A DNA stretch of 43,321 nucleotides, taken from NCBI GenBank assembly GCA_014799365.1, contig JAAVIF010000050.1, forward strand, positions 1-43,321. Reading direction: 5' to 3'. The translations under genes and the position numbers were made by a program. A model generated the notes under the pieces. That model made no database searches and was not told the DNA's origin. It saw only the letters and a program-made list of their open reading frames with translations. Positions 13,587-30,447 of the stretch are shown piece after piece; positions within the stretch are counted from its first letter, which is position 1; each line of letters opens with the position of its first letter. The stretch comes from Oscillospiraceae bacterium (lineage in GTDB: Bacteria > Bacillota > Clostridia > Oscillospirales > Ruminococcaceae).

Positions 13587-13995
13587 TTTGACGGCTTCAC
13601 CGCAGTATGCCCTAAAAGCGCGTACCGTTTCAAAAGACGGGTAAAAGCACTGAGCTTGTTTTGTTTATTGAACGGTCGGCAGCTTGCGTCCTTGAAAATA
13701 TACGGGTGAAAACGCCGGGAAAATTGCGGAAATAAAAAGGGTACATCGCCGATTATTTGTTAGCCGAAAAAATAAATTTCCCGTTTGTAGCGCAATAATG
13801 TCAAGAATCAGATTTATGTTGATTTTTGTAAAAAAGTGCGGTAAATTTAAGTGGGATATTTTTCGCAAAATATACGGAAGCTCCAAACAAAAAACACATC
13901 GCAAAAGATTACTTTCCGCTAAGCTTATACTAAATACATTCACCTAAATTTTAAAGGCAGCTTTAAAATAAATTATCTGAAAGGAAGCTAAAACC
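13587..13995. other. Divergent intergenic region between the flagellar operon and the plus-strand cassette
   Basis: About 410 bases without a supported gene. It must hold the plus-strand cassette promoter. The best candidate is TTGATT at 13819-13824 and TAAATT at 13842-13847 with 17 bases between. A TATACT at 13927 has no good -35. AAAGGAAGC precedes the first cassette gene at 13996. No repeat or RNA was recognised. Confidence 0.4.
13819..13847 (+). promoter_or_regulatory. Candidate SigA-like promoter of the cassette
   Basis: TTGATT, 17-base spacer, TAAATT, pointing toward the first cassette gene with a leader of about 140 bases. Matches are partial (5/6 and 4/6). No SigD-type site was found on this strand here. 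Confidence 0.3.
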
Positions 13996-14556
13996 ATGGA
14001 AAATTATCAAATTACTACGGCAACCCGAAATACAAAAATTCAGGTCAACCCCGATGCTTCGCTTAATTTTGGCGCGGATGTAGAGGTTTTCGGAATCAAG
14101 CTTACCGGAGTGATCGAAAAAAACAATAATGACGTACGCATTCTTGTATGCCCGACATCAAAGAATCCGCAGCAGGACGTAACATTAAAAGCCATACTCG
14201 GGGAGCTTGGAATCACCGATACGTCACAGGCGGACGATGTACTTAAGTTTGTGGGATTTGACGGCGGTGCGGATAAGGTCGATATTAAAGTTCATCAGGC
14301 CTTTTTCTATTCCAGCAACGCTGAAGCCGATATAGCATCGATAACCGTGCCGGACAAAGGGACAGTTAAAATTGACAGGGAATATGCTTTTTCCCTCGGA
14401 ATGGTCAACACCTTTGAACCAAGCGATAATGCTAAGAAGCTTCCCTTTAAGATCGATTCGATTTCCTTTTCCTTATGGAACAGCACACGCAAGGGCGTTG
14501 TTGAATCGCTCGGAGCATACGGCATAGCGGATAAGCTTGACAAGCTGAGCGAATGA
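13996..14556 (+). CDS. Cassette protein 1, beta-rich, related to the N-terminus of cassette protein 2
   Basis: A 186-residue protein without signal peptide or membrane segment; function not recognised. Residues 21-72 (ASLNFGADVEVFGIKLTGVIEKNNNDVRILVCP...LKAILGELGI) align by eye with residues 15-67 of the next protein (KLAVKLSIELFGKKFTGAAEKNGEYLNISAC...ISAAADKLGL). This suggests that one domain exists both free and fused. AAAGGAAGC precedes the start. It is the first gene of the cassette, and its stop overlaps the next start by 4 bases (ATGA), so the two are translated together, probably in a set ratio. It may be a partner or nucleating form of the large protein. Confidence 0.8.
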   Translation: MENYQITTATRNTKIQVNPDASLNFGADVEVFGIKLTGVIEKNNNDVRILVCPTSKNPQQDVTLKAILGELGITDTSQADDVLKFVGFDGGADKVDIKVHQAFFYSSNAEADIASITVPDKGTVKIDREYAFSLGMVNTFEPSDNAKKLPFKIDSISFSLWNSTRKGVVESLGAYGIADKLDKLSE

Positions 14557-17192
14557 GCGACAGCAAAAAATATAAAATCAAGGCGGAGAAGGATCCAAAG
14601 CTTGCCGTAAAATTAAGCATAGAGCTTTTCGGCAAAAAATTTACGGGAGCGGCGGAAAAAAACGGCGAATATTTAAATATATCCGCTTGCTCGGAATCCG
14701 AGCTTAATATAAAGGATTTCATATCGGCGGCGGCAGACAAGCTCGGATTGGAGCTTGACATTCCCGATGCCTTTGACCTAAGCGTCGAACGCTTAAGCGT
14801 TGATTATATCAAAAACATTCTGTCCTTTGAATGCGAGTTTGACAAATTTCTGCGGAAGATAAGTTTCGGTTACGAAAACAAAAACAAGGATTATTTTTTG
14901 GGGTTTACGGTTCAGGACCTTAATTTGACCGAAATACCCTTTATATCCGAATTTGCGGGCGGCGCAAAATTCGGGCTTAACGATCTGTCGCTGATCTTCG
15001 GCACGACCGCTCAAAATTACAAATACTCCTCCGCAAAATCGGCGGAAAGCAAAAGCTTTGACGTTAACGCGGGACTGAGTCTTTGCGGAAATATATGCGG
15101 CTTTGGCTTCGTACAACTTCTGAAGCCCTATCAAAAAAAGGTCAAAACAGACATTGAAAATGAAACCGCGCTTTCGGAAAATACAAGCGGTCCGACAACC
15201 TTCTGGGCCGATATAAATAAAAAGGTATCCGTTATTACGCTGCACAGAGCGGGGTTTTCCTACGATAACGGAGAACTGGGGGTAATGCTGGATATTTCGG
15301 CGTCAATAAACCCTTTTACGGTTTCGCTGCTCGGAGCGGGACTTCGGGTAAACATAGACACCAAGGACGTCAGCTTTCTTTTATCGGGATTGGGGCTGGA
15401 ATTTGACAACGGCTTCCTTACAATCGGCGGGGCGTTCAACAGATCGGGGAATAAATACTCGGGTGCGCTGACGGTGGGCATCAAGACAATAAAAATCACC
15501 CTTATCGGAACGTATGAGAAGGGCAAATTCCTTGCGTACGCGCTTATAAACGCCAATATAGGCGGCCCGCCCGCATTTTTTGTAACAGGCCTTGCGGCTG
15601 CCTTCGGCTGCAACAAGAGGATCGTGCTGCCCGACATTGGGAACGTGCCCGATTTTCCTCTGGTAGCGGCGGCGGTGGGCAAAAATAAAATGAACCTCAC
15701 GGAAATGATAAACAATCTTGAAAACGGAAAATATATTTCCGATCAAGAGGGGGACAGATTTATTTCCGCGGGAATAAAATTCACCTCCTTTAATATGATA
15801 GAAAGCTTTGTGCTTTTAAACGTAGGCTTTGGCAGCAAATTAAGCTTCAGTCTGCTGGGCACCTCCGAAATTTCAATACCGCCAATGACGAAAAAAAATC
15901 CGATCGCGTACGCGCAGCTTGCTTTGAAAGCGGTCATTGACCCGTCGGAGGGCGTCGTTTCCGTTCAGGCTCAGCTAACTCCCGAATCCTATATTTTAGA
16001 CAAGAAATGTAAGCTTAACGGCGGCTTTGCGTTTTTCCTGTGGTTCGGCAGCAACCCGCACAGCGGTGATTTTGTGCTTTCCCTCGGAGGCTATCACCCG
16101 AAATACGACAAGCCGTCTCATTATCCCGACGTACCGCGTATAGGCATCAACTGGCAGATAACCAATCAGCTTTCCGTTTCGGGGGAAGCGTACTTTGCCC
16201 TTACGCCCTCCTGCATAATGGCGGGAGCGAGAATATCCGCTTTGTACCGAGACGGTAATCTGAAAGCGTGGTTTATCGCTCAGGCGGACTTTTTAATAGG
16301 GTGGAAGCCGTTTGAATATTCGGCGCACCTGTGCGTTTCTCTCGGCGCGTCATATACCGTCGACTGTTGGTTCATTCATCACACGTTTACAATAGAGCTT
16401 GGCGTGGAGCTTGACTTTCACGGTCCCGATTTTTCGGGCAGGGCGCGCATAAGCTGGTTCATAATCTCCTTTACCGTAAAATTCGGAAGCGATAAGCAAA
16501 GCGCGCCGCCGATCAGCTACCAAGAGTTTGAGCAAAGCTTTTTGCCCTGTCAAAAAGAAAAATCAACCTCCGCGCTTTTTTCCGTTAACGAGCCCAAGCC
16601 TCTTACCGTTACCGTCAACGGGAAAATACTCGGCGAAAAAAACGGAGTAAAATATGTAAGCTCAGACGGGCTCTCCTTTATCGTATCCTCCGCCGTGCCC
16701 GTTTCCGACGGGACGCTTGTTATACGTCCCATGAAAAGCACTGTGTTTGCGGACGGAAAACCCTTTAGGTCGGAAATAACCTTTGATAAAGAGGGAATAG
16801 AAAATTACACCGTAACGGAATATGTCCGGCGCGCACCCGCTGCGCTGTGGGGCGGAAACGGAGAGCTTCGCGAGGTAACAAGCGGATATGTTATAACGGT
16901 AAACGACCCGTACTTTGAAGCTTTTCCGAAAAACCGCTTCATATCCCTTGAAGAGCTTTACGACAAAAACATTCAAATTTACGAGGGATATAAATTCCGA
17001 CAATCGGTAAAAACCGAATATAAAGCCCGCGACACAATAAAAGAGTTTATGGAAACGGCGAATAATGTCGGCGAAGCGCGAACGGCGTTTATAAAAGCAA
17101 TGGGAGTAATCCCCATTTCGGATATTACTCTTGCCGTTTACGCCGAAAACGCGGAAACGCTGTTTGACGAAAACATTTTGATTAAAGAATAG
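14553..17192 (+). CDS. Cassette protein 2, large DUF6603-type beta protein
   Basis: An 879-residue protein. Residues 1-150 repeat the fold of cassette protein 1. Residues about 215-670 look like DUF6603: long runs of alternating strands (LLSGLGLEFDNGFLTIGGAFNRSGNKYSGALTVGI) and the marker GGPPAFFVTGLAAAFGCNKR at about 338-356. The repeats of short amphipathic strands recall porin-like or solenoid architecture, but there is no signal peptide. Residues about 690-879 form a separate alpha/beta tail. DUF6603 has no established function as far as I know, and the assignment is from recalled pattern, not a search. It overlaps the gene before by 4 bases. Confidence 0.85.
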   Translation: MSDSKKYKIKAEKDPKLAVKLSIELFGKKFTGAAEKNGEYLNISACSESELNIKDFISAAADKLGLELDIPDAFDLSVERLSVDYIKNILSFECEFDKFLRKISFGYENKNKDYFLGFTVQDLNLTEIPFISEFAGGAKFGLNDLSLIFGTTAQNYKYSSAKSAESKSFDVNAGLSLCGNICGFGFVQLLKPYQKKVKTDIENETALSENTSGPTTFWADINKKVSVITLHRAGFSYDNGELGVMLDISASINPFTVSLLGAGLRVNIDTKDVSFLLSGLGLEFDNGFLTIGGAFNRSGNKYSGALTVGIKTIKITLIGTYEKGKFLAYALINANIGGPPAFFVTGLAAAFGCNKRIVLPDIGNVPDFPLVAAAVGKNKMNLTEMINNLENGKYISDQEGDRFISAGIKFTSFNMIESFVLLNVGFGSKLSFSLLGTSEISIPPMTKKNPIAYAQLALKAVIDPSEGVVSVQAQLTPESYILDKKCKLNGGFAFFLWFGSNPHSGDFVLSLGGYHPKYDKPSHYPDVPRIGINWQITNQLSVSGEAYFALTPSCIMAGARISALYRDGNLKAWFIAQADFLIGWKPFEYSAHLCVSLGASYTVDCWFIHHTFTIELGVELDFHGPDFSGRARISWFIISFTVKFGSDKQSAPPISYQEFEQSFLPCQKEKSTSALFSVNEPKPLTVTVNGKILGEKNGVKYVSSDGLSFIVSSAVPVSDGTLVIRPMKSTVFADGKPFRSEITFDKEGIENYTVTEYVRRAPAALWGGNGELREVTSGYVITVNDPYFEAFPKNRFISLEELYDKNIQIYEGYKFRQSVKTEYKARDTIKEFMETANNVGEARTAFIKAMGVIPISDITLAVYAENAETLFDENILIKE

Positions 17193-17200
17193 GCGTGTTT

Positions 17201-18367
17201 ATGGAAATAACACAGGAATTCAAGCTTATAGACAAAATAGAGCCTCCCGTTAAAAACGGAAGGCGTACTTTTTCCGCGGTCCAAACGGTAACGCCGCAAG
17301 GTGAGCAGCCCGCCGAATATACCGCGTCTCAGGAATACGTGATCTCACATAACGCCTTTACTCTCGGCGCGGACGAGGTTTTCAGCGTATACCCTGCAAA
17401 CGGCGAAGCGGGAGATTTCGCAGGAACTCTCCCTTACATAACCTTAAACCAACGAACTCTTCCGTGGGCGTTTGGCGGCAGTCCTTTTTTGGCACTGCTG
17501 GTGCTTAAAAGCAGTGAAATCATCGAACAGGGAGAGATAGAGATAAAAGAGCTTTTTACGCCTACTTCGGGAACGTATTTCCCGAAAAAGCCCGAATTCC
17601 CCGAAATTTACTCCGAGGACGATACGGAGCGTTGCCGCTTTATAGATATTTCAAGGCGGACATACAACGATATTTTTCCGTCCTCTTCGGATATTCCGCT
17701 TTTGGCTCACGTTAAATTTCTGAATCTGAGCAGGGCGCAGGACAAGGTTTGCGGCAAGGACGGGTATTTTTCCGTAATTCTCGCAAACCGCTTTGTTCCG
17801 TCGGATTCCGAGGGCGAAACCTTTTCGGAATGTCATCTGGTAACGGTTTTCGGACACGGCAAAGGTGTTCCCGCGGACTGCGAAAAAGTAAGACTGGTGT
17901 CCTTATACAGCTGGAATATCCGTTCCCGCAGCGAAAAGGGCAGACCCTTTACGGAGCTTGTAAAGGGATTGTCGAAGAACTGTAAAGAGATCGGCGGAGA
18001 CCGAACAGGGGGAGAATCGGTTTTGATGCCCCATTATACACGAACGGGCGAAATGACATATTCGCTGTACCGTCCCCCCCTCGCCGCGGGAGAATGTGAA
18101 GAAATCCCGCAGCTGTCCCGCGCCCGTACCGCCGACGGCAGACTTATCTATGACAAGAAAATCGGTATTTTTGACGTAAGCTACGCGGCGGCGTTTCAGT
18201 TGGGCAGGCTTATAACGCTCAGCAGACCCGAAATGGCGGAAAAGGTTTTGTCCCACCGCAACGACAGCAAGGCGGCGGCGCATAAAGAGGTGATCGATCG
18301 GATCGTTTCCGATACCAACGAAAACCTTGATCTTGACGCGCTTGCCGATCTGTTGATCTCATACTAA
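17201..18367 (+). CDS. Cassette protein 3, uncharacterised
   Basis: A 388-residue soluble protein of unknown function. The segment EVFSVYPANGEAGDFAGTLPYITLNQRTLPWAF and the later FDVSYAAAFQLGRLITLSR look like conserved family blocks. They recall uncharacterised actinobacterial and cyanobacterial proteins with LPHVVLNRRTLPWER-like and AWQLGRLLAL-like blocks; this is memory, unverified. ATG at 17201 is preferred, with AGG 7 bases before it; a GTG at 17195 would add two residues. Its stop codon TAA and last codon lie inside the terminal motif of the repeat at 18361, so the insertion set or preserved the C-terminus. Confidence 0.8.
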   Translation: MEITQEFKLIDKIEPPVKNGRRTFSAVQTVTPQGEQPAEYTASQEYVISHNAFTLGADEVFSVYPANGEAGDFAGTLPYITLNQRTLPWAFGGSPFLALLVLKSSEIIEQGEIEIKELFTPTSGTYFPKKPEFPEIYSEDDTERCRFIDISRRTYNDIFPSSSDIPLLAHVKFLNLSRAQDKVCGKDGYFSVILANRFVPSDSEGETFSECHLVTVFGHGKGVPADCEKVRLVSLYSWNIRSRSEKGRPFTELVKGLSKNCKEIGGDRTGGESVLMPHYTRTGEMTYSLYRPPLAAGECEEIPQLSRARTADGRLIYDKKIGIFDVSYAAAFQLGRLITLSRPEMAEKVLSHRNDSKAAAHKEVIDRIVSDTNENLDLDALADLLISY

Positions 18368-18486
18368 TCTCTGTTTTGACGGTAGACAAAATTTAACAAA
18401 GTCTACCGTCAAAACAGGGTTACCCCCTAAGCACTAATATCGGTTTAAAAAGCCATTTTGTCCACTTTTTAAACCGATATTAGTAT
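18361..18486. repeat. Modular hairpin element, copy A
   Basis: 126 bases bounded by ATACTAAT and ATTAGTAT. Hairpin 1 has perfect 17-bp arms (18371-18387 and 18401-18417, CTGTTTTGACGGTAGAC). A linker ending CCCTAAGC follows. Hairpin 2 has perfect 20-bp arms (18433-18452 and 18465-18484). It differs from the copy at 30297-30422 at only three positions. It encodes no protein and splits the cassette between genes 3 and 4. Confidence 0.9.
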
Positions 18487-18529
18487 CATACGCGGAAAGC
18501 CAAAAAAACAAATAAGGAATATTCATAAA

Positions 18530-19417
18530 ATGAAAAGACATTATCCGCAAAGCATGAACGATAAGCTGACCGCCTTTTGCGGCGTATCGGAAATTCCCTC
18601 AGATATACAAAGCTATGTGGAGGAGCTAAGACTGCTGAACTACGTTCCCCTTTCCTATATCATTGCGGACGAGTCGCTGCTGCCGCCCGAAAGCCTGCGC
18701 TTTTTCTGCGTTGACCGCAACTGGGTAAGCGCGCTTACCGACGGGGCCTTAAGCATAGGCAGAGTTACCGAGGGAGACGGGAAGCATGATGAAATGCAGC
18801 TTGGCTGCGCTATGGAACACTCAAACGCCCGTCTGCATCTTCCGCGCCTTAAAAAAATGCACCCGCTGCATTTAGGCTCCGCGCTGAACGTGTACAAAGA
18901 AAACGAAAAATTCAGCCAAGCCTTTTTGACCGATCGATCCGACAGCGGCGAATTTAGTGTAAACGACGCGGCCACCGACGGAATGGTTTCGGGATTTATC
19001 ATGCGCTCCGAGCTTGTAAGAAGAGCAAAAGACCTGAATATTTCCGCGTACAGCGGCAAAAAGGAAATTCCCGCTCTGCGCTTGGACAGTCTTGCCGACG
19101 ATATTTCTATCGGACTGTTTGACGGAAGAATAACGTCGCTTAAAATATCCGAGCCGAAAACAGGCTTAAGCTTCGGACTTGCGGGAAAGGAAGAGTGCCT
19201 TGTGCCAAAGGATACCGACGAAAAAAACTTCGGCGCGCCGCTGAGGGATAAGAGCATAGACATAAAGGATTATAAAAACGGCGCGGGCAGACTTGACGTT
19301 TCCAAGCTGGCGGAAAAATTAGGCGAAAGCTTAAATACCGATATTAAATCCGCAAAGCTTGCGTTTGAACTGATAGTAACTCCCGCCTGCGCCGTCTTTA
19401 AGGAAAAGGAAGAATAG
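18530..19417 (+). CDS. Cassette protein 4, uncharacterised
   Basis: A 295-residue soluble protein of unknown function. The N-terminal block LNYVPLSYIIADESLLPPESLRFFCVDRNWVSALTDGALSIGR (about residues 35-78) and the later GFIMRSELVRRAKDLNISAYSG and LRLDSLADDISIGLFDGRI look like conserved family motifs. I recall similar blocks (IRFFYVDPNW, FLLRSAVVSGWPGL) from unnamed actinobacterial proteins; not verified. AAGGAA precedes the start. It comes directly after repeat copy A and 12 bases before the next gene. No signal peptide, membrane segment or catalytic motif seen. Confidence 0.8.
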   Translation: MKRHYPQSMNDKLTAFCGVSEIPSDIQSYVEELRLLNYVPLSYIIADESLLPPESLRFFCVDRNWVSALTDGALSIGRVTEGDGKHDEMQLGCAMEHSNARLHLPRLKKMHPLHLGSALNVYKENEKFSQAFLTDRSDSGEFSVNDAATDGMVSGFIMRSELVRRAKDLNISAYSGKKEIPALRLDSLADDISIGLFDGRITSLKISEPKTGLSFGLAGKEECLVPKDTDEKNFGAPLRDKSIDIKDYKNGAGRLDVSKLAEKLGESLNTDIKSAKLAFELIVTPACAVFKEKEE

Positions 19418-19429
19418 AAGGGTATAAAA

Positions 19430-22400
19430 ATGCCATTGAACCGTATTATCATACCGCTTACGGTAAAAGCTCACCTTGCGAACGATACCAATGCCGACAC
19501 ATATAAACCGCCGCGCTGGTTTCCCGATTATACAAAGGTTTATAACTCCGTTCTCGGAGCAAACGTCACGCCAACGCCCTTTACGGAGTACAACAATTGT
19601 CTTAAGGCAGGGGTTCATCTGCACTTTATACTTCCAAGTGCTTTCAGGCACGGGAGCGTAAAGAACGACAGCAATGACAGCGAAAAAAACGAAGAATACG
19701 ACTTTCCCGCTGTCCCCAACAGATATGTTATAACGAGAATGTATGAACAAGACGGGAAAATACAAGTCAGGTGCTTTATTGCGGAAAGCGATTTTATCAG
19801 GCCTGAGCTTGGCAAAGGGGAAGATAAAGAGGATTACTCGGTAATACCCTATCTTGACGACTCCTCGCACCCATACCGTTTTATGGGACGTTGGTATGAA
19901 GCGGAAAACATTCCCGAGGGCGGAGAATACTTAAATAAAAAGCTTACCGTCGTTATGGGGGGCGATCCCTTGTTCGCGGCTTACTACCCCACCTGTAAAA
20001 GCGTTTTCGGGTGGCATGACACACTGGAGGGCGTTCCCGAAAAATGTGATCTCACTTATTTTGTTCTGGGATATTTCAGCAGCGCGAAGGACGATCCCTT
20101 TTCCGAAATCGATACGATTGAAAAGCTCAGGGAGGTCTTATCCTCCTGCAATTTTACCGTTGAAGGCGAAACCGAAGAGCTTTGCGATGGCTGCGTTTTT
20201 TTCGGGGAAGCACTGAACATCAGGTGGGAGGGAGCAAAATATCCTTATGATGATATGAACGCTCCCACAGGCGAGGTAGACGTATCCTTCGGCCCTACCT
20301 CGGCGGAGGCAATGTCGGCGGTTCTGGCGCAAAAAAGCTCGGATAGACTGTCGGCGAAAAATTTTTTTGCCCGATCCTCCCCGTCGGAAAGCTTGGAATA
20401 TAATTTCACCAAGCTGCAATACGATCTGCTTAAGCAGGAAAAATTGGAGGACGGAAGCTTTAAGGCAGACGACGAGATACACAAGCGCACGTTCAGAGAG
20501 ATCGATCCTCTTGAAAAATATGACGTGATCAGACCCAAGGAAAATACCAACCACAGCGCGGCGATCGATCTTACCGCTTACAGCGAGCTGCGCCGACTGC
20601 GGCGGGAGGCGGGACGTGTCGAAAGAAAGCTCAGCTTTACAAGAAAAAAGCTTTATTACGCATGGGAAACGTATATAAGCCGCCGCGAGGCCGCCAGATC
20701 CAACTTCAGCGAAGCTCTTGACGAAATAAATCGGCTGATTGATCAGCTTTCCGACGGCAGCGAGCTTATGTCGGAAAAAAGCAGACTTGAAAATGAGATA
20801 AAGCTTAAGCTTATTGAGACAGAGAAAAGTCTGCCCGACGGTTACGAGCTGAAAACCGAAACCGCCGAGCCGTTCGTTATTCAAAAGGACCCTGTGATAA
20901 TGGTAAGCGGAGAGGGAATAAACAAGGTATTCGCGTTCGACGAAAAAAATGCGGACGGCTCGCTGACCTGTTATATTTCGCCGCGGGGATCGGAGGGGCT
21001 GAGTCCCGAGGACGTGCTGAAAAAATGCGTCGGTCTTCCTCCCGAATTTCTGCCCTTTGATTATTACGCTCTGCTTTATCAGGCGGTTATAAACAGTCCG
21101 AAGCTGCTGAAAATATTCGGCGGCGTTTCCGTAAAGGAAAAAACCTTATCCGACGCCGTAAACGAAATGCCCCTTGAACCGTCGCAGCTTTTTATGGACT
21201 GGCAGATAAAGTGCCGCTTCACCGAGGACAAAGCCTCTCTGGATGGTTGGAGCTTTGACTTCGGGGAAACCGATTACGTCTATAACGGCAGTCCGAAAAA
21301 AACGCCGATCTCCGTAGGAGGGCGTATACCCCTGACTCCGCACGCTCACAAGGTGCTTACCGAGCAATTGGATAATTATCAAAACAAACCCGAGCTTCGC
21401 GAAAGGCTGCGCGATCTGCCATTTATCTCTCAGGAGCTAAGCGGCTTCACAAACGAGCTTGCAGGCTTACGGCAGGTCTTTCAGCTTCCCTTAAGCTATG
21501 ACGTTCACGACATCTCCAAGGAAGCGGAAAGGCTTGTTGAAAAGCACAGGCTTTCCGTCCGCGGAACCGAGCTTTTTCCCATGCGCGGCTGCTGCATAGG
21601 CTTATCAAGACTTAATATAATAGGCACCTTCGGACAGAAGCAAACGGTAGTGCGGGACAGCGAATACAACAACTCCAAAGCGTTTTTTCCGTACTATATG
21701 GCGACCTTTAACGACGGCGGCGATTATATGGGAATGTTTCCGCTTTTCTTTACCTCCGAAACAAGGCTTACCGCGGAATTTACCGCTCCCGACTTTAAGT
21801 GCGGCAATACAAACGACGGCTCGCCGATCTGCGCAACGATACTTCCCGAGCTGCTGAATAACCGTCTTATGCTTTACAATCAAAAGGGAGAATATGCGGG
21901 AATGCTGAAAACCGTTTTCAGAAACGGAAAAGGCAAAAACATATTTATAAAATCCCCCTCCGTCCCCGAGCTTAACCCCGTTCTGGAAGGCTTTATAAAC
22001 GGGATCATGAACAACGACGCGTCTCTTTCCTCTCTGATCTCCTTGATGCAAAGCAAGCTGGACAGAACGGTGCGTACCTGTCAAAGCGATTTTATATGGG
22101 GGGTTCCGCTGACGCTGTCGCAGCTCAGAGTTAGGTTTGAGTTTTTCGGCGGAGCGGAGTATTCAAAGGAGGACAAGGATTTCGGCAAATATGACGACAA
22201 GGGCGCGGAAAGGCTCAAAATACCCTTGAATTTCGGAAATATAAACCGCGCTGCGGACGGAACGATAGGAGTTTATGAAAACGGTGATTTTTCCGCGATC
22301 TACCCATTGTGGGGCGCGGAAAATAACGATGTACGGGATTATGTCAAAAAGGAAAGCCCTTTGATCTCGGCCGCCGACGGAGACAAAATATTTACCGTGC

Positions 22401-22696
22401 TGTCTGTTCCGAACAGCGATCTGTATATAGAAACGGGACTTCTCCCCGTAGTCAGGACCCGCATAAACTCAATGTATACCTCGGCGGCGGACAAGATAAT
22501 ACCCACCGCCGAAATAAACCCGATCATTGCCGATATTAAAAAAGTCCGTCTTCCCATTTATGACGGATTTGAATGGCAGTATAAGACAACTCCGCAGGAC
22601 AGCGGAACTTTTTCCGAAATATTGCCCTTGGAGGATATTATAACGGAAAACGTTATTGCGGAAGGATTGATCGTAAAAAATGAAAAAAAGAATTAA
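19430..22696 (+). CDS. Cassette protein 5, giant uncharacterised protein with central coiled coil
   Basis: A 1088-residue soluble protein of unknown function. The N-terminal block LKAGVHLHFILPSAFRHGS followed by FPAVPNRYVITRMYEQDGKIQVRCFIAESDFI appears to be a family signature (I recall GVHLHWALPDAL and FPAVPNRW in unnamed proteins). A long charged coiled coil lies at about residues 380-470 (LRRLRREAGRVERKLSFTRKKLYYAWETYISRR). The C-terminal half is alpha/beta with no recognised catalytic motif. AAGGG precedes the start. It overlaps the next gene by 17 bases. Size plus coiled coil suggests a structural or scaffold role within the cassette; this is inference. Confidence 0.82.
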   Translation: MPLNRIIIPLTVKAHLANDTNADTYKPPRWFPDYTKVYNSVLGANVTPTPFTEYNNCLKAGVHLHFILPSAFRHGSVKNDSNDSEKNEEYDFPAVPNRYVITRMYEQDGKIQVRCFIAESDFIRPELGKGEDKEDYSVIPYLDDSSHPYRFMGRWYEAENIPEGGEYLNKKLTVVMGGDPLFAAYYPTCKSVFGWHDTLEGVPEKCDLTYFVLGYFSSAKDDPFSEIDTIEKLREVLSSCNFTVEGETEELCDGCVFFGEALNIRWEGAKYPYDDMNAPTGEVDVSFGPTSAEAMSAVLAQKSSDRLSAKNFFARSSPSESLEYNFTKLQYDLLKQEKLEDGSFKADDEIHKRTFREIDPLEKYDVIRPKENTNHSAAIDLTAYSELRRLRREAGRVERKLSFTRKKLYYAWETYISRREAARSNFSEALDEINRLIDQLSDGSELMSEKSRLENEIKLKLIETEKSLPDGYELKTETAEPFVIQKDPVIMVSGEGINKVFAFDEKNADGSLTCYISPRGSEGLSPEDVLKKCVGLPPEFLPFDYYALLYQAVINSPKLLKIFGGVSVKEKTLSDAVNEMPLEPSQLFMDWQIKCRFTEDKASLDGWSFDFGETDYVYNGSPKKTPISVGGRIPLTPHAHKVLTEQLDNYQNKPELRERLRDLPFISQELSGFTNELAGLRQVFQLPLSYDVHDISKEAERLVEKHRLSVRGTELFPMRGCCIGLSRLNIIGTFGQKQTVVRDSEYNNSKAFFPYYMATFNDGGDYMGMFPLFFTSETRLTAEFTAPDFKCGNTNDGSPICATILPELLNNRLMLYNQKGEYAGMLKTVFRNGKGKNIFIKSPSVPELNPVLEGFINGIMNNDASLSSLISLMQSKLDRTVRTCQSDFIWGVPLTLSQLRVRFEFFGGAEYSKEDKDFGKYDDKGAERLKIPLNFGNINRAADGTIGVYENGDFSAIYPLWGAENNDVRDYVKKESPLISAADGDKIFTVLSVPNSDLYIETGLLPVVRTRINSMYTSAADKIIPTAEINPIIADIKKVRLPIYDGFEWQYKTTPQDSGTFSEILPLEDIITENVIAEGLIVKNEKKN

Positions 22697-24296
22697 AGCG
22701 GAAATAAACTCGGGAGCGTGTCCCGTATGGCTGTCTCCCGAAACGGAAACGGGCGTTCTGAAAATGCTTCAGAATTTTTCCGTAACCTTTGAAGCGGTTC
22801 CCGATTTTGAGGAAAAGCAAGGCTCCGTCAAAGGTCCGGGAGAGATTCCCCGCGTTATTTTGCGCGACTTTTCAAGGCTTGTGTCAAAAAGCGATTTTGA
22901 AGGTGCCGAGCTTTCGTATTCCGACGATGAAAATTGGGACTGCAAATGGACAGAGACGGACGATCTGATATTTTCTTATTCGGGAGACGACCCCTTTAAA
23001 AAGGGCGGCGAAAAAATCTCCTTTTTTTGGAGGAATTTCTATACTCTCGCTTCCTCCGAAAACAAGAATATCAAGCTGACCGTCGAAGCGTACTCCGTTC
23101 CCGGCTGCGGGGACGGAGAGCAGGGGACTTTGTCGGCAAGGCTTGCTTTCCCCGCTTATATAATTTCGTTCCGGCCCGACAACGAAAAATCCGAGGGAAT
23201 AGTCCGCAGCGATTCGGAAAACAGAAGATGCGTTGTCAGCGCGGGGGGCAGCGTGGTGCTGAAATGGAGGGGAGCCGCTGACTTTACGGACAAAACGGTG
23301 CTTAAAAAGAACGGTATCGCGGTAACGGGCAGCTTTACCGTCAACGACTCGTACAGCGTAAAAAACATCACCGAAAGCTCGGACTACGAGCTTTCGGTTA
23401 CCAACGCGTACAGGTTTCCCCATAGTCTCACCTACGGGATAGACAAGACCGACTGGAAGAAAAAGGGAGCGGAGAACGGGATTTTTGAAACTGACATATA
23501 CTCCGATAAAAATTTCAATTCGCAAATTTTTTCTTATCAAGGCACATTGTACGCTTACAGTCACCCCTGTCTTTATAAAAAAGACGAAAGCGGAAGCTGG
23601 GAAAGCGTTTCGGAAAATAAGCTGTACAGCAATAAAAATTATTCCTGTCACGCTTCGTATTTGCATAACGGAGTATTGTACTGTGCGGGAAGCATAAAGG
23701 ATTCGGAATATTTTTCGTTTTGCCGTTACGATATGAGCTACGATAAATGGAATACTGACGAGGGCTGCGTCAATTTGCCCTGCTTGGAAAAAGACGCGCC
23801 TATATGCTGCGGATTTGCGGCTTCAAGCCGTCAAAAATATTTTTACTTTGCGGACAAGGGTCTTATTTCGATAAATCACTGTAATGATTTTGAGGGCTGG
23901 GGAAGCAGCCGATATATAAACGCTCCGAAAAACACCAAGCTGATCGGCGCGGCAATGATATTTCGCGTCGATCGGTTCTATGTGTCAATGCTGTGTGAAG
24001 AAGAGGGGAACGAGCAAAAAAGGAACGTTTATCTTGCCGAAAATCCGGAGGGAACCGAGGAGTTTATAATGAAGCAGCCTGTGTCCAAAAGCACCGAAAG
24101 GATCACAATGCTTAAAACAGTAAACCACTTATGGATCGCTACGGACAGGGAAGTAATAAACTGCGATAAAACGGTATGCGACAGCTTGTTTTATCCTCCC
24201 GCGCCAAACAACGGAAAAGCGTGGCTGGGTTCGGACGAAAACAATATTTTCGGAATATTTCCCGATAATAACTTATGGGTTTATGACTGCCGCTGA
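22680..24296 (+). CDS. Cassette protein 6, Ig-like N-terminus and predicted beta-propeller
   Basis: A 538-residue protein. Residues about 1-260 look like two beta-sandwich regions (SGGSVVLKWRGAADFTDKTVLKKNGIAVTGSFTVNDSYSVKNITESSDYELSVTNAY is Ig-like). From about residue 280 on, repeated blocks such as FSYQGTLYAYSHPCLYKKDESGSWESV and LHNGVLYCAGSIKDSEYFSFCRYDMSYDKWNTDEG resemble Kelch-type propeller blades. Cysteines are more frequent than in the neighbours. It starts inside the end of gene 5 with AAGGATTG upstream, indicating translational coupling. A binding rather than catalytic role is inferred. Confidence 0.78.
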   Translation: MKKRIKAEINSGACPVWLSPETETGVLKMLQNFSVTFEAVPDFEEKQGSVKGPGEIPRVILRDFSRLVSKSDFEGAELSYSDDENWDCKWTETDDLIFSYSGDDPFKKGGEKISFFWRNFYTLASSENKNIKLTVEAYSVPGCGDGEQGTLSARLAFPAYIISFRPDNEKSEGIVRSDSENRRCVVSAGGSVVLKWRGAADFTDKTVLKKNGIAVTGSFTVNDSYSVKNITESSDYELSVTNAYRFPHSLTYGIDKTDWKKKGAENGIFETDIYSDKNFNSQIFSYQGTLYAYSHPCLYKKDESGSWESVSENKLYSNKNYSCHASYLHNGVLYCAGSIKDSEYFSFCRYDMSYDKWNTDEGCVNLPCLEKDAPICCGFAASSRQKYFYFADKGLISINHCNDFEGWGSSRYINAPKNTKLIGAAMIFRVDRFYVSMLCEEEGNEQKRNVYLAENPEGTEEFIMKQPVSKSTERITMLKTVNHLWIATDREVINCDKTVCDSLFYPPAPNNGKAWLGSDENNIFGIFPDNNLWVYDCR

Positions 24297-24352
24297 CATA
24301 CTCGTTTTTTATAAGCGAACAGCGATGACAATACCGAAAAGGAGGAAAAACA

Positions 24353-26938
24353 ATGAACGATGCTAAAACACAGGCTTTAGAGAACATTTCGGAATGTAAC
24401 GATATGGAGATCAGCGTAACCAACATATTTCCCGCAAACCGATCGTTGGAGCTGGACACCTTAACATTCAAGGACAACGGCGTTATAGTTTTTTCGGGGG
24501 ATTATGAGCTTAAGGTCAACAAAATATACAACCTCAAAAAAACCTCCGTAAACAACGGCGACGACAGCAGCTACGAATTTATTATCGCAGGGGAAGACGG
24601 AGAGAACGGCAGAGACGCGGCTCATGCGGGAAAGGTAAATATCCTCGTAAAAGAGATCGACGGCGATATACGTATACTTGCGGCGGCAGGCAAGGGATGC
24701 GGCGGAAAGGACGGCGTTGACGGAATGAACGGCGGCGACGGCGGCAACGGGTATCAGGGGGGCGACGGCGGAAGCGGCGGTGACGCAGCGGCGGGAACCA
24801 ACGGCAGCAGCGGCGGAAATGCACCCGATTTGAATTTAACATATTCATCGCTGAACGGTGATTCGTCAATATATGTTAACGGTGAAAAGGCAAAACAAAA
24901 TCACATATTCCGTATCGAGGGCGGAAAGGGAGGCAAAGGAGGAAATGCCGCCGCGGGAGGAAAAGGCGGACGGGGCGGCAAGGGCATAGATTCTCTGCAT
25001 AACGGAAAGGACGGTAAAGACGGCATGGACGCAAAGGGCGGCATTGACGGTAAAGACGGAGAGGACGGTTTTATAAAAATCACAAAAAGACCTATTGCCG
25101 AAAGATTGGAGGAGCATAGGGGGCTTTACGTTTTCGATCTTACGGACGATGAAGAATACGAATACTGCATGTCCAAGCTGGGCGGCAAGGAAAGGCTTAT
25201 GCAATACGGCGCGGTTTCGGACGCTTTAAAGAAAAGCCGCTTAAAGAAAAGGGGCGGTACAAAAAGCGAGGATAATACGTCGTCCATATCCGTAACCTTT
25301 AACGGCAACAGCTTTTACGATGCGGCGAAAAATAAACGCTCCGTCAAATCCGATTCAAACGGCTCCGATTTCAAAAGAATGTGCAAAAACTTCAGCATTG
25401 ATCTTTTCGACACAAAAACCGAGCCGGCCGAAAATATTGCCGCTTCAAAATGGAAGGTACTGACGGTAAATTTAAATGTAGTAAATAAAAGCTGCCCCAC
25501 AGGTGCTCCGATAATAAGCCAAAGCTTTGAAGCGTCAGGCAGCTACGGCGGCACCAAGGACTTCTGGTCCGAACCCTTGAAAACCGAGGATTTTGAAGGA
25601 ACGCTTGTCACCGTAATGGAGATCAGAGGCATCAACGCCGAAGGAAAATATGTTGAGGCCGAATATAGGGATAAAGAGCAGTTTGGCAAGGAGATAATGC
25701 AGTATACCGTAACGGATATAAAGGTAAGCGACCCCAAATGGAACAAAAAGTATGATGACGGCATAATTATGCTGTACGGGCGCACAAACGAGCAGGATAT
25801 ATATTCAAAGGCGGATTATGTCGGCGGGGACTATGAACACAATACCGTAAAGTCAAACAAAGAAATAGCGACCCTTATTCCCTTTAAGGGCAGGGTCACC
25901 TTCAGCAACGACTATACCCCTGTCGGCATCACCCCTCCTGATGACGCAATAACATTTTTGCGGCCCTCGCTGAATTACGATAATAAATCCGCAGGCAAAA
26001 GAACTCCCGACATTGTTTATCAGAACGATATAACCGACAACAGTAAGCTGTATAAGCTTTGGACGGATCAGGAATGCTTTAAAGCCTGTCCCGGCGTTGT
26101 GGACCCTCATGTTGATTTTGACCTTTCGCTGGACCGAAACGACAAGACAAGCAAATTGGACTGGCATCACAACATTACGGGAGATGCCGACGGCAATAAG
26201 CGAACCGTCCTTCTTCGCGGAAACTTTGGTTACAGGCTGCACAGAAACGGCTTTCCCGACGATAAATATACCGATATACAAATATCGGTAGCAAGTATTT
26301 CAAAGGAAAATCTTGAAGAAAACAACAAGAACCTCCCCCCCGAAGAGAAACGCGAATATTACAGCTTTTTAAACGGCAGCAACCTGATCTATATTCCTCC
26401 AATACATATTTATTGGGGCTGTCTGGGCAAAGACGTTTTGCTGAAAACCGCCGACAAAAAAGAAAAAACCGCTGAATCGGTCAAAATAGGCGATAAGCTC
26501 TTATCCCATGACGGCAGGACGGTTACGGTGGAGGATATATACACGGGTCGGGATGAAACGATCCTGCGCTTAAAATGCAAGGGCGGTTATGAAACTCTTA
26601 TGTCGGGAGCTCACCCCGTTCTTGATGAAAACGGAAAGGGCGTTCCCGTAAGAAGTCTTAAGGCGGGAGATAAAATAATGACGGAAAACGGCGGCACGGC
26701 GGAGGTTATATCCGTAACTGAAGAGCCTTACAATGATACCGTCTACAACTTTACCTTTGCGGGAGAATCCGAAAGCGTTTATATCATTGCCGACGGGATC
26801 TACGCGGGCGACCTTAACGCTCAGAACGCAGAACCCGAAGAGCCTCGGGAAACCGAAGAGGAAAAAGAGCTGACAAGGAAGCTGGCCGAAGAGATGCACA
26901 TTATTTGCAAACTGGCAAGGAGCAGGGTAAAATGCTGA
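24353..26938 (+). CDS. Cassette protein 7, glycine-rich collagen-like region with C-terminal Hint domain
   Basis: An 861-residue multidomain protein. Residues 1-78 are beta-rich. Residues 79-239 are Gly/Asp/Lys-rich with collagen-like repeats (GGDGGNG, GGKGGKGG, GKDGKDG). Residues about 240-685 are mixed. Residues 688-822 form a Hint (Hedgehog/intein) domain: the nucleophile Cys690 in WGCLGKD, block B His754 in SGAHPVL, the AGDKIMTENG turn and the terminal IIADGIYAGDLN. The tail is a charged helix ending KC. The Hint domain may cleave or release the upstream part, as in polymorphic toxin and bacterial intein-like proteins. AAAAGGAGG gives a strong start. No signal peptide seen. Confidence 0.87.
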   Translation: MNDAKTQALENISECNDMEISVTNIFPANRSLELDTLTFKDNGVIVFSGDYELKVNKIYNLKKTSVNNGDDSSYEFIIAGEDGENGRDAAHAGKVNILVKEIDGDIRILAAAGKGCGGKDGVDGMNGGDGGNGYQGGDGGSGGDAAAGTNGSSGGNAPDLNLTYSSLNGDSSIYVNGEKAKQNHIFRIEGGKGGKGGNAAAGGKGGRGGKGIDSLHNGKDGKDGMDAKGGIDGKDGEDGFIKITKRPIAERLEEHRGLYVFDLTDDEEYEYCMSKLGGKERLMQYGAVSDALKKSRLKKRGGTKSEDNTSSISVTFNGNSFYDAAKNKRSVKSDSNGSDFKRMCKNFSIDLFDTKTEPAENIAASKWKVLTVNLNVVNKSCPTGAPIISQSFEASGSYGGTKDFWSEPLKTEDFEGTLVTVMEIRGINAEGKYVEAEYRDKEQFGKEIMQYTVTDIKVSDPKWNKKYDDGIIMLYGRTNEQDIYSKADYVGGDYEHNTVKSNKEIATLIPFKGRVTFSNDYTPVGITPPDDAITFLRPSLNYDNKSAGKRTPDIVYQNDITDNSKLYKLWTDQECFKACPGVVDPHVDFDLSLDRNDKTSKLDWHHNITGDADGNKRTVLLRGNFGYRLHRNGFPDDKYTDIQISVASISKENLEENNKNLPPEEKREYYSFLNGSNLIYIPPIHIYWGCLGKDVLLKTADKKEKTAESVKIGDKLLSHDGRTVTVEDIYTGRDETILRLKCKGGYETLMSGAHPVLDENGKGVPVRSLKAGDKIMTENGGTAEVISVTEEPYNDTVYNFTFAGESESVYIIADGIYAGDLNAQNAEPEEPRETEEEKELTRKLAEEMHIICKLARSRVKC

Positions 26939-26994
26939 TTTTATATCCAAGTACATACAATAAAAACGGGGCAGTCTATTTATTTTAATGTAAT

Positions 26995-27038
26995 AAAAAA
27001 GCTTACGGCATTCATAAAGATGCCCGTAAGCTTTTTTT
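26995..27038. terminator. Bidirectional terminator between the cassette and the XRE gene
   Basis: AAAAAAGCTTACGG (26995-27008) pairs with CCGTAAGCTTTTTT (27024-27037) and gives a T run on both strands. It ends the plus-strand cassette and the minus-strand XRE gene that converge here. Confidence 0.9.
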
Positions 27039-27039
27039 A

Positions 27040-27567
27040 TTATTGTTTTCCGCTGCCGTCAAAGGCTTTTTGTTCCGCATACGCCATCATTTTATTGTAC
27101 CTTTCGATCCTGACGACCGCCGCTGCGATACAATCCGCGCCGCACACAACAAATCCCGCCTTTTCCCAAACAAACCACCCTATCAATGCGCCCGAAACAA
27201 AAACCGCCGCAAAAACGATGATCCACAAAAGCAGCGAAAGCCTGTGATCCTTTTTCCACTTTTCCTTAAAAAACTCTATCTTCTCCTTTAAAGAAAAAGA
27301 GGTTCCCAATACCGCCTTTATATTTTCCTCCGCTTTTTCCTTATACTCGGTATCGGACAGCTTTTCGCCGCTTAATATTTCGTTGATGCTTACGGAATAA
27401 AGCTCGCTTAAGAGCCTGAGCATTTCCACCGGCGGCATATAATTCCCGTTTTCCCAACGCGAAACCGTTTTGTTGGTAACACCTAATTTTTCTCCAAGCT
27501 GTTCTTGGGTCAGATTTTTTTCATGCCTTAGCTCAGCCAAAAATTCCCCGATTTTAATTAAGTCCAT
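27040..27567 (-). CDS. XRE-family transcriptional regulator with C-terminal membrane anchor
   Basis: A 175-residue regulator. Residues 5-60 are a Cro/C1-type helix-turn-helix (LTQEQLGEKLGVTNKTVSRWENGNYMPPVEMLRLLSELYSVS). A charged linker follows, then hydrophobic helices at about 111-131 and 137-153 (SLLLWIIVFAAVFVSGALIGW), so the DNA-binding domain is probably tethered to the membrane. ACAGGAGAAACGATC precedes the start. It is a single gene facing the cassette, and the target is unknown. Membrane-tethered XRE regulators often sense envelope or peptide signals. Confidence 0.85.
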   Translation of the reverse strand: MDLIKIGEFLAELRHEKNLTQEQLGEKLGVTNKTVSRWENGNYMPPVEMLRLLSELYSVSINEILSGEKLSDTEYKEKAEENIKAVLGTSFSLKEKIEFFKEKWKKDHRLSLLLWIIVFAAVFVSGALIGWFVWEKAGFVVCGADCIAAAVVRIERYNKMMAYAEQKAFDGSGKQ

Positions 27568-27596
27568 GATCGTTTCTCCTGTGCCGTTTTTTATTT

Positions 27597-27755
27597 ATAC
27601 TAATTCTCGATCAAAATAAGACATAGCCGGCGGGCGGGGCGTTCCTGATCAAGGAAGTCCCGATGCAGGAATATGCGGATATTTCAAGTCGGGCTGACGC
27701 AGAGCAGGGACGCCCCGGCCGTTGGATTTGTCTGATTTTTATTGAGATTTAGTAT
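27597..27755. repeat. Modular hairpin element, long imperfect copy E
   Basis: A 159-base imperfect palindrome that starts ATACTAATTCTCGATCAAAA and ends GAGATTTAGTAT. The outer arms match each other well through the GC-rich CGGGGCGT block near 27636 and 27710. The outer bases resemble the hairpin of copy C (CGATCAAAGTATAGACAAA), with a GC-rich centre about 80 bases long between. No coding potential. Confidence 0.7.
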
Positions 27756-27851
27756 TATTATATCATGTACAAGGAAATTTGTCTTTACCATAAACAGCGA
27801 ATGGCTTGGTTAACGCAAAATTTCGGCTTGCTTTTTCATATCGGTACAGGC

Positions 27852-28706
27852 CTACTGCTTTTTAATAACAGGCACCCAAATTTCGCTTTTATAGTTATCT
27901 GTTGCGTAAACCTCAATATCCATATCGCAGGTAGGGCTGTAATCCGAGGAAGGTATAAACTCGGTGCAGATTCTGTGCCACAGATTCTGAATAGCGTCGG
28001 GCATTGGCCCTACGCACTGAAAAACAGCCCATGTGCAGGAGGGTATTTCGCTTACCGTAAATTCCTCGGGAATCTCACGGCTGTCGTCTATCACAGCCGC
28101 AACGGAATACTCAAAGGTGGATTCCGGGGTGTGAGGATTTGAATAGCATATCCCCCAAATTTTGCTTTTGTCACATGAAAGCTCCAAAAGTCTGTTAACT
28201 GTGCCGTCCGCGTGACATCTCGCCCAAAATTCAGGAATGGTTTTGTTATTTGCGTTTTCGCTTACGGTATGTGTTTCACGTTTTTCCGCCACCTTAAATT
28301 TGTCCTTTTTGATGATCTGGTAATCCATTTCGGTACCGCCTTTCATTGATATTGCAACGGTAAGCTTGGCAAAGGACTTGATAGGGCTTCCTTTTTTTGC
28401 GGCAGCGGGAGTTACCCCGTGAAAGCGTGTAAAAGCCCTTGTAAAGCCCTCGTGGGTATCGTAGCCGTACTTCAGCGCAATATCCAGCGTTTTTTCATCT
28501 GTGGAAACAAGCTCCGATCCCGCAAGGGCAAGACGGCGGTTTCGGATATATTCGTTTACCGTAAAGCCACATATTATCGTAAAAAGCTTTTGATAATAAA
28601 ATGAGGATATGTTCATTTGCGCCGCGATCTCGGTCATATCAAGGGGCCGTAAAAGATTGTCCTCGATATAGTCTATCGACCTTTGAAAGCTTCTTATCCA
28701 ATCCAT
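27852..28706 (-). CDS. AraC-family regulator with GyrI-like effector-binding domain
   Basis: A 284-residue regulator. Residues 5-105 hold the two AraC-type helix-turn-helices (DNLLRPLDMTEIAAQMNISSFYYQKLFTIICGFTVNEYIRNRRLALAGSEL and IALKYGYDTHEGFTRAFTRFHGVTPAAAKKG). Residues about 125-283 match the effector-binding domain (AKLTVAISMKGGTEMDYQIIKKDKFKVAEKRE, SIPSCTWAVFQCVGPMPDAIQNLWHRICTEFIPSSDY...DIEVY). Such proteins bind small drug-like ligands and often control efflux or detoxification genes; no such target is next to it here. GGAGGTGAAGCA precedes the start. Confidence 0.9.
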   Translation of the reverse strand: MDWIRSFQRSIDYIEDNLLRPLDMTEIAAQMNISSFYYQKLFTIICGFTVNEYIRNRRLALAGSELVSTDEKTLDIALKYGYDTHEGFTRAFTRFHGVTPAAAKKGSPIKSFAKLTVAISMKGGTEMDYQIIKKDKFKVAEKRETHTVSENANNKTIPEFWARCHADGTVNRLLELSCDKSKIWGICYSNPHTPESTFEYSVAAVIDDSREIPEEFTVSEIPSCTWAVFQCVGPMPDAIQNLWHRICTEFIPSSDYSPTCDMDIEVYATDNYKSEIWVPVIKKQ

Positions 28707-28828
28707 TGCTTCACCTCCATTCGAGTATATATTACCATATTTTAAGGCATAAGTCTTGACTTTTTTGACCGTGTTTTGTTATTATGCGATCTGCCGCAAC
28801 GCCTTTTCAAATTATCTGTATACAAATC

Positions 28829-28856
28829 AATGCCGACTGCTTTTGCAATCGGCATT
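28829..28856 (-). terminator. Hairpin after the SigD-dependent gene
   Basis: AATGCCGA (28829-28836) pairs with TCGGCATT (28849-28856), and the stem extends inward with one mismatch to a 4-base loop. It lies just past the stop of the gene ending at 28865. The T tract is short, so it may be a weak terminator. Confidence 0.55.
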
Positions 28857-28864
28857 TGCTTATA

Positions 28865-29803: not shown

Positions 29804-29843
29804 GAGATACCCTCCTGAAGCTGTATAATTTGCTCTATATGTT

Positions 29844-29870
29844 ATATCGGCATTTTTCAGGAAAACTTTA
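29844..29870 (-). promoter_or_regulatory. SigD (sigma-28) promoter of the uncharacterised gene
   Basis: TAAA, 15 bases, GCCGATAT on the minus strand, identical in layout to the flgM promoter and sharing AAAGTTTT at the -35. The expected start point lies about 34 bases before the 29803 start codon. Confidence 0.93.
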
Positions 29871-29886
29871 GCATTTTTAGCGGTTA

Positions 29887-29967
29887 TTATTCCAAAACAC
29901 AAAAAATCCCACATTTAAGGCTTTTTGGATGGTTTTGTTGGGCCATACTGCATTCATGTTTTTTCAT
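29887..29967 (-). CDS. Possible 26-residue peptide
   Basis: ATG at 29967 overlaps the stop of the small membrane gene (ATGA) and has AAAGGGGGACAA upstream. It would encode MKKHECSMAQQNHPKSLKCG then IFCVLE, with three cysteines. It ends about 17 bases before the SigD -35 of the next gene. It may be a coupled peptide or chance. Confidence 0.35.
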   Translation of the reverse strand: MKKHECSMAQQNHPKSLKCGIFCVLE

Positions 29968-30125: not shown

Positions 30126-30206
30126 TTGTTCCTCCTTAAAGCTATTCTATTTATATTTTAAATCCTAAATTTTATTTATCATTCCTGTGTAATTTTTCTA
30201 TTTTTT

Positions 30207-30235
30207 ATTATAATAATCCAACCGCATCTTGTCTA
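30207..30235 (-). promoter_or_regulatory. SigA promoter of the small membrane gene
   Basis: TAGACA, 17-base spacer, TATAAT on the minus strand. It reads to the small gene at 30125 with a leader of about 75 bases. Confidence 0.7.
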
Positions 30236-30247
30236 TGGCAATTTTAC

Positions 30248-30434: not shown

Positions 30435-30447
30435 ATAAATTTTTTTA

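Follow-up and report, generated by a model that had tools for sequence, protein, structure and literature searches.

A 43,321-nucleotide stretch of contig JAAVIF010000050.1 from an Oscillospiraceae bacterium, analysed at its full length and referred to here as the window, carries seven plus-strand genes (g1 to g7) grouped around a gene for a DUF6603 protein. A first-pass annotation had described them as a tightly packed cassette of giant beta-rich proteins and as the clostridial version of a wider system. All seven open reading frames exist, and a core of five components was found to be co-inherited and syntenic across phyla. The genes and associated features are as follows.

13996-14556, plus strand: g1, 186 aa, separate piece resembling the N-terminus of g2
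14553-17192, plus strand: g2, 879 aa, DUF6603 protein, domain at 15213-16556
17195-18367, plus strand: g3, 390 aa, GTG start, core protein without a named family
18530-19417, plus strand: g4, 295 aa, core protein without a named family
19430-22696, plus strand: g5, 1088 aa, core protein with the motifs G-HLHW-LP ... VPNRWLV-R and a helical or coiled-coil-like middle
22680-24296, plus strand: g6, 538 aa, carrier domain and Ig-like region (22863-23456) followed by a variable head (23457-24293)
24353-26938, plus strand: g7, 861 aa, glycine-rich fibre-like part, middle part, Hint domain and short charged tail
26420-26827, plus strand: Hint domain of g7, from Cys690 (W-G-C) to the GDLNAQN motif, defined from an 18-sequence alignment
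26990-27043, no strand assigned: bidirectional terminator, from RNA fold and sequence
13588-30451, no strand assigned: strain-variable region with the cassette, between flgM and the elongation factor Tu (EF-Tu) gene

The overlaps of 4 bases (g1/g2) and 17 bases (g5/g6) are as first described, and three intergenic gaps are short (g2-g3, 2 bases; g4-g5, 12; g6-g7, 56), while the 162 bases between g3 and g4 exceed what had been claimed. The bidirectional terminator proposed to close the cassette was recovered as a symmetrical hairpin flanked by an A-run on its 5' side and a T-run on its 3' side (segment 26985-27045: −23.3 kcal/mol, z −6.8, none of 200 shuffles as good in RNA folding). The label of giant beta-rich proteins held for g1 and g2, in which beta-type alternation (fraction of sequence windows) reached 0.57 and 0.60 against 0.41-0.49 in six other proteins of the window; it was barely raised in g6 (0.53) and g4 (0.52) and not raised in g3, g5 and g7 (0.42-0.48). 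A Kyte-Doolittle scan revealed neither a signal peptide nor a membrane span in the seven proteins, in agreement with the first reading.

A second genome of the genus (G015) contains all seven genes in the same order with 50-68% protein identity, which led to the conclusion that the cassette is not a chance grouping. A cluster of ordinary unrelated genes brought together by chance would be conceivable insofar as most members lack a named family, but it is refuted by the synteny and co-occurrence across phyla described below. Within the genus the distribution is patchy: DUF6603 was detected in two of 60 relatives, namely the window's own genome (counted among the 60) and G015, and g4 in the same two of 71 genomes of the genus, 36 of which were also searched for DUF6603. 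A phylum-wide sample of 249 genomes yielded one genome with DUF6603 and one with g5, in both cases the window's own. Based on this patchiness, the different location of the cassette in G015 and the existence of plasmid copies, we infer that the cassette moves horizontally.

Scanning with the DUF6603 core alignment gave 440 pattern matches, including 356 relatives, of which the best 80 were kept. The final set of 84 loci comprises 79 of these best 80 of 356 relatives (L011 was left out as a duplicate of L008), L008, which is the G015 locus, and four plasmid loci (L004-L007). As DUF6603 served to collect the loci, all of them necessarily contain g2, and close relatives are over-represented. Gene calls were obtained from a codon-usage script instead of annotation, and the counts for g1 and g3 to g7 are based on iterated profiles started from the window proteins. 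Two pairs of loci (L071/L086 and L034/L082) each derive from a single genome. DUF6603 matches occurred in 11 plasmid records, among them the four in the set, two more from S. clavuligerus with the same score, and L094-L096, which were compared separately. According to the record titles, the hosts are Lachnospiraceae and other Clostridia, cyanobacteria, Actinomycetota, Bacteroidota, Chloroflexota, Acidobacteriota, Pseudomonas (Pseudomonadota), alphaproteobacteria and others. The proposal of a wider system that includes actinobacterial and cyanobacterial members is thereby borne out and extended to further phyla.

Profile matches to g3, g4 and g5 were obtained in 77, 74 and 74 of the 84 loci, and profiles from the window proteins matched g6 in 21, g7 in 21 and g1 in eight. 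Homologues that are scattered and never co-occur, the outcome named in advance as speaking against a system, were thus not what was found. The gene order is likewise conserved, with g3 located 3' of g2 on the same strand and within 1.5 kb in 77 of 77 loci; four of the seven loci without g3 end less than 1 kb from g2. In 45 of 74 loci g3 and g4 form one polypeptide, and in the other 29 they are separate. The position of g5 relative to g2 varies: 39 loci have it 3' of g2, 34 have it 5' at a distance of 3.9-9.2 kb, and one has it on the opposite strand. The arrangement thus consists of two largely constant blocks, g2-g3-g4 and g5-g6, which can stand in either order. A genome-wide check of 23 of 24 chosen loci gave 27 places for DUF6603 and, after merging two second pieces among 27 rows, 25 for g5; each g5 place in these 23 genomes lies within 9.5 kb of a DUF6603. 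Mantel correlations of 0.87-0.95 were obtained for all six pairs among g2, g3, g4 and g5 (54 loci plus the window; none of 999 permutations as high), a correlated divergence that is expected from shared inheritance alone and is no proof of contact. Taken together, synteny and co-occurrence across phyla and the 25 of 25 g5 places beside DUF6603 establish one co-inherited system with a five-component core, consisting of g2 (with g1), g3, g4, g5 and g6. Of the seven-member system originally put forward this core stood, and g7 turned out to be mainly clostridial.

Several loci deserve separate mention. The Eisenbergiella tayi locus (L079) is rearranged, with g5 and g7 on the strand opposite g1-g2-g3-g4. 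Herpetosiphon aurantiacus DSM 785 (CP000875.1) contains two cassettes about 28 kb apart (L071 and L086), each with g5, a g6-slot protein with a collar-like tip (for L086 assigned by reading), a metallo-beta-lactamase (MBL) gene, g2 and a fused g3=g4. A plasmid of Streptomyces sp. NBC_01276 (L094) carries g2 to g5 together with two g6 domains, and genes annotated as CATRA conflict-system and CHAT-domain genes are located about 5-10 kb upstream. On plasmids of Halalkalicoccus (L095) and Streptomyces sp. NBC_01724 (L096) a divergent DUF6603 gene is followed by a gene for a large protein, and these loci possibly represent a second, distant type of system, in one case in an archaeon.

In the profile searches of the seven proteins that had been suggested in the first-pass annotation, Pfam returned DUF6603 for g2 and, below the cut-off, a Hint-type family for g7. 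The g2 protein is a clear member of DUF6603 (PF20248; E 4.7e-137, 458 bits against a gathering cut-off of 27), as first proposed, and the invariant core residues of the family read DF..GGY. Tandem repeats, each about 105-120 residues long, occur in the N-terminal part of long g2 proteins (n = 51); hhalign values between tiles reached 98%, in a comparison run without a shuffled control. A TamB-like lipid transfer function, prompted by the repeat-rich strands of g2, was rejected with an hhalign probability of 0.5% against 2.5% for the reversed control. The first approximately 50 residues of the window g2 resemble g1 (BLASTP E 1e-5), and the g1-family profile matched the window g2 (7e-5) and no other g2 protein searched. 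Against the A6 N-terminus the g1 profile reached a probability of 39%, and against the alignment of long g2 proteins it gave no signal. As g1 is present in eight of 13 loci with a short g2 (<1000 aa) and in none of 71 with a long g2, that is, only beside short g2 proteins, it looks like a separately encoded piece of long g2.

For g3 and g4 no Pfam family was found in more than one of 39 members each, and for g5 in no more than one of 30 members. Profile comparison with PDB sequences gave no convincing match for g2, g3 and g4, and the matches for g5 were limited to helical bundles, coiled coils and similar structures (best 0.002). Beyond DUF6603, nothing convincing was obtained for g2 to g5 in Pfam, NCBIfam, PHROGs, PADLOC and the PDB sequences, and NCBIfam and PHROGs likewise returned nothing convincing for g1 to g6. 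Mutual kinship among g2, g3, g4 and g5 was considered and rejected in five of the six pairs, g4 versus g2 being left out. Relatives of g2 were absent from all 50,697 phage records, and a scan of viral contigs gave 68 pattern matches and no relatives; on these searches and the PHROGs scan, a phage origin of the core was rejected. The open-access papers searched yielded no mention of DUF6603/PF20248, no published partners, context or mechanism of the family, and nothing on the neighbours or domain combinations of this system. As far as these searches reach, the gene system is thus undescribed, and sequence profiles found no convincing characterised counterpart for g2 to g5; a known fold may still turn up in these proteins. 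A conserved small protein of 54-71 aa was also noted in 16 of the 84 loci (e.g. L054:4068-4250); it adjoins g5 where looked at and has no match in Pfam or PHROGs.

The conserved portion of g6 was captured with a profile of 191 positions seeded from L064, the consensus of which reads as a beta domain followed by an Ig-like region. This profile matched 77 proteins in 68 of the 84 loci, including residues 62-259 of the window g6 (E 8e-23), and none of the reversed or shuffled copies of 961 neighbour proteins. Skipping proteins below 80 aa, the gene 3' of g5 encodes this domain in 64 of 71 informative loci, and g6 is therefore regarded as a core component; in the remaining 10 of the 74 g5 loci the next gene lacks the domain (five), lies on the other strand (two) or is cut off by the contig end (three). 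The part that follows is exchanged more readily than the N-part. In pairs with a g2 identity of 35-40, 40-45, 45-50, 50-60 and at least 60%, N-parts were detectably similar in 259/946, 241/339, 115/119, 62/62 and 32/32 cases, compared to 43/946, 39/339, 28/119, 53/62 and 18/32 for the heads, a comparison in which detection of N-parts is favoured, as they are often longer than heads. Clustering gave 19 clusters of heads and six of N-parts, one of which holds 60 of the 68. Thus, g6 consists of a carrier domain followed by an exchangeable head.

Six of ten g6 heads scanned gave Pfam matches, which comprise the tail collar/Gp10_C type (3e-8), the S74 chaperone of fibres (1e-4), Fib_succ_major (2e-13), kelch twice (1e-15 and 2e-7) and a lactonase propeller (5e-23), while no match was obtained for the window head and three others. 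In PHROGs, the collar and S74 heads fall among tail fibres (2e-31 and 6e-14). The resemblance to phage tail fibres accordingly consists of two heads of the ten (L033 and L061) belonging to these families (PF07484, PF21939, PF13884) and of the general plan of a carrier with an exchangeable tip; the cassette differs from them in that no phage relative of g2 was found, g2 to g5 gave nothing convincing in PHROGs and the window head belongs to none of the fibre families. In both LamG-type g6-slot proteins scanned (L043 and L071) the LamG domain is located in front (2e-24 and 6e-19). The g6-slot protein of the Embleya plasmid locus (L007:24927-25604) ends in a Fib_succ_major domain; this kind of domain is a target of diversity-generating retroelements.

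The description of g7 as a collagen-like protein with a Hint domain was confirmed in the form of a glycine-rich stretch and a Hint-like domain. The glycine-rich part weakly resembles PHROG tail fibre 5073 (E 2e-4, residues 111-252). Among the 21 loci with a g7 match, 17 have clostridial titles and two (L017, L023) are titled 'uncultured bacterium'; the others are a Fibrobacter metagenome-assembled genome (L028) and the Embleya locus (L007), which contains the glycine-rich part only. The Hint domain matched PT-HINT at E 9.4e-6 with 26.4 bits, just under the Pfam cut-off of 27.7. It was matched by 18 of 27 g7-family proteins, the other nine being separate glycine-rich pieces, cut by the locus end or devoid of a Hint domain. 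In all 18 the domain begins with Cys, which follows W-G in 17 and F-G in L031. The 17 sequences that extend to block B all have its His, and the C-terminal end reads GDxx(A/M)Q, without His-Asn, in all 12 that reach the end. With its N-terminal Cys, block-B His and Hint-type profile matches the domain is similar to Hedgehog and bacterial intein-like Hint domains, and it differs in having GDxx(A/M)Q in place of His-Asn and in its position at the end of a glycine-rich fibre-like protein. Based on the residue roles given for the thioester and splicing steps in PMC4031507, formation of an N-terminal thioester would be expected for the g7 Hint domain and splicing would not. Self-processing is thus plausible, and among the cassette proteins it fits g7 only.

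A Hint domain combined with fibre-like tips raises the question of whether the locus encodes a delivered polymorphic toxin or an extracellular contractile injection system (eCIS), in which Hint would free a toxin and the fibres would aim it. The best Hint match being PT-HINT and the tail-fibre-like tips of g6 heads favour this explanation, as do two genes for 'phage baseplate assembly protein V' about 9-14 kb upstream of the cassette on the Paenibacillus polymyxa plasmid p-YT9A (L004), a stretch that also contains a DUF4280 gene. According to Zhang et al. (2012, PMC3482391), HINT directly precedes the toxin in polymorphic toxins and has never been associated with the type VI secretion system (T6SS) or Photorhabdus virulence cassettes (PVC). 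In the window g7, only 36 residues follow the Hint motif, with no toxin domain and no family match. As in eCIS, T6SS and tailocins, signal peptides are not visible in the window proteins. Fibre-like recognition proteins would be a further common trait: collar and S74 heads occur in loci from other phyla, and in the window the resemblance is confined to the glycine-rich part of g7 and is weak. No sheath, tube, baseplate or ATPase family was found in the seven window proteins. Phage_sheath_1 was detected at 19 places in 12 of 25 cassette genomes, 17 of which lie on a different contig from DUF6603; the other two share its contig at distances of 366 and 763 kb. As the sheath genes are unlinked to DUF6603, a contractile injection system was rejected, and a toxin or eCIS locus is largely refuted for the window and altogether very improbable. 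In the window's own genome, a contractile sheath gene of the phage type lies on a different contig (G000:C27:10435-10869).

The gene immediately 5' of g2 encodes a protein with an MBL-type His/Asp motif in 31 of 83 loci, 29 of which have both genes on the same strand; counted over the whole locus stretch, 33 of 84 loci have such a protein. The MBL-bearing loci include the Clostridia L025, L026, L029 and L031. Pfam Lactamase_B matched two of three candidates scanned (L043 and L071, not L044). This neighbour is the best argument for the main alternative, an intracellular anti-phage conflict system in which g6, g7 and the core sense or trap a phage component and the MBL acts as a nuclease effector that was lost or replaced in the window. 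The MBL of L058, encoded 5' of g2, resembles the MBL effectors of Lamassu, reverse transcriptase (RT)-associated and Avs systems in PADLOC (LmuA 3e-18, RTasMBL 9e-18, Avs1a 1e-9). Further support comes from the patchy distribution (g4 in only two of 71 genus genomes, DUF6603 on plasmids) and from the lack of visible signal peptides in the window proteins. On the other hand, the MBL matches are at superfamily level, the clostridial MBL of L029, the only other one scanned with PADLOC, matched no model there, and the window cassette has neither an MBL nor any other effector-like gene among its seven. PADLOC gave no convincing match for g2 to g7 of the window (g1 was left out), the best being 0.029 for a helical stretch of g5, and LamG and tail-fibre tips would be unusual for cytosolic sensors. 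We consider an intracellular conflict system unlikely, even as the leading rival.

The reading that we favour, with a probability of about 0.42, is that the cassette represents the clostridial version of a widespread system encoding a signal-less, multi-protein recognition assembly with a fixed scaffold and swappable tips. We infer that the proteins assemble, leave the cell and bind a target. In this model, g2 (with g1), g3/g4 and g5 would be produced in the cytoplasm, lacking signal peptides, and build a large scaffold, and g6 would be the exposed recognition fibre, the tip of which is swapped between lineages like the tips of tail fibres. The assembly would reach the outside by lysis or another route and bind a partner cell, a surface or a polymer. 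In Clostridia, g7 would add a second, glycine-rich fibre. Because the residues of the thioester step are present and the C-terminal His-Asn is absent, its Hint domain probably cleaves itself off via an N-terminal thioester step, and through this cleavage the fibre may gain an activated end that could be attached to an acceptor in the manner of hedgehog proteins, hydrolysis of the fibre part being the other conceivable outcome. The most specific version of this model appears doubtful. It would describe a new class of extracellular recognition machine not derived from phage tails, which has a DUF6603/g3-g4/g5 scaffold and cassette-swapped fibre tips partly shared with phages, was spread over at least seven phyla by horizontal transfer and carries in Clostridia a second fibre cut and attached by a hedgehog-like Hint domain.

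The LamG, Ig-like and glycine-rich parts would also fit a cell-surface or developmental structural layer, such as a sheath- or coat-like adhesive acting on the producing cell. Among the hosts, Streptomyces, Nonomuraea, Herpetosiphon and cyanobacteria are filamentous or developing bacteria, and Hint could anchor g7 covalently. Such a layer is nevertheless improbable, as the window proteins have no visible signal peptide, occurrence in two of 71 genomes would be odd for a structural layer in one genus, and head swapping speaks for changing partners.

Several observations weigh against the recognition assembly. No export route was found encoded in or linked to the cassette, and as the core has no tail, sheath or baseplate relative, fibre-like tips are no proof of an extracellular particle. 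Kelch and lactonase propellers also occur inside cells, and the window g6 head has no family match in Pfam or PHROGs. The absence of signals is established for the window proteins and not for the homologues, among which a crude hydrophobicity scan flagged the N-terminus of 7/58 g5 and 1/26 g7 proteins and a 19-residue hydrophobic stretch in 17/85 g2, 2/58 g5 and 2/26 g7 proteins; for comparison, 74 and 93 of 491 unlabelled neighbour proteins were flagged for N-terminus and stretch, respectively. At 50-60% g2 identity heads are mostly conserved, and the MBL gene 5' of g2 is not accounted for. Regarding co-occurrence, g3 is absent from L036, L064 and L066 despite 3.6-7.1 kb of sequence 3' of g2, two of the 27 DUF6603 places in the 23 genomes lack a nearby g5, and the plasmid loci L095 and L096 gave weak g3-like matches while g4, g5 and the g6 domain were not matched.

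A multi-gene system that is kept across phyla and whose core matches nothing characterised is rare. DUF6603 gains a defined partner set, in which fixed (scaffold) and swapped (tip) parts can be told apart. If extracellular, the assembly would be a new kind of bacterial interaction device, and if intracellular, a new conflict system. Culturable hosts, including Herpetosiphon aurantiacus with its two cassettes, Blautia schinkii, Streptomyces shenzhenensis and Westiellopsis prolifica, render this question testable.

With regard to the genomic setting, the cassette starts 638 bases from flgM, which lies on the opposite strand, and the divergent neighbours read as flgM-flgN-flgK-flgL (names read from the proteins), in line with the late flagellar operon named in the first-pass annotation. 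In G015, the genes next to the cassette read as beta-galactosidase and AraC types and not as flagellar genes, and the flgK-flgM region is located on a different contig and is free of the cassette. A functional link to flagella was therefore rejected, and the flagellar neighbourhood is regarded as incidental. Homology to relatives ends on the left at 13587/13588, beyond flgM (G015, G007), and resumes on the right at 30451/30464 beside the EF-Tu gene (G007, G034), so that the cassette lies within about 17 kb of strain-variable sequence flanked by conserved blocks. As its two flanks are on different contigs, G007 does not represent a clean empty site. On the opposite strand, this strain-variable region also contains, at 27040-29914, a gene for a 349-aa protein and genes whose products read as XRE-like and AraC-like regulators.

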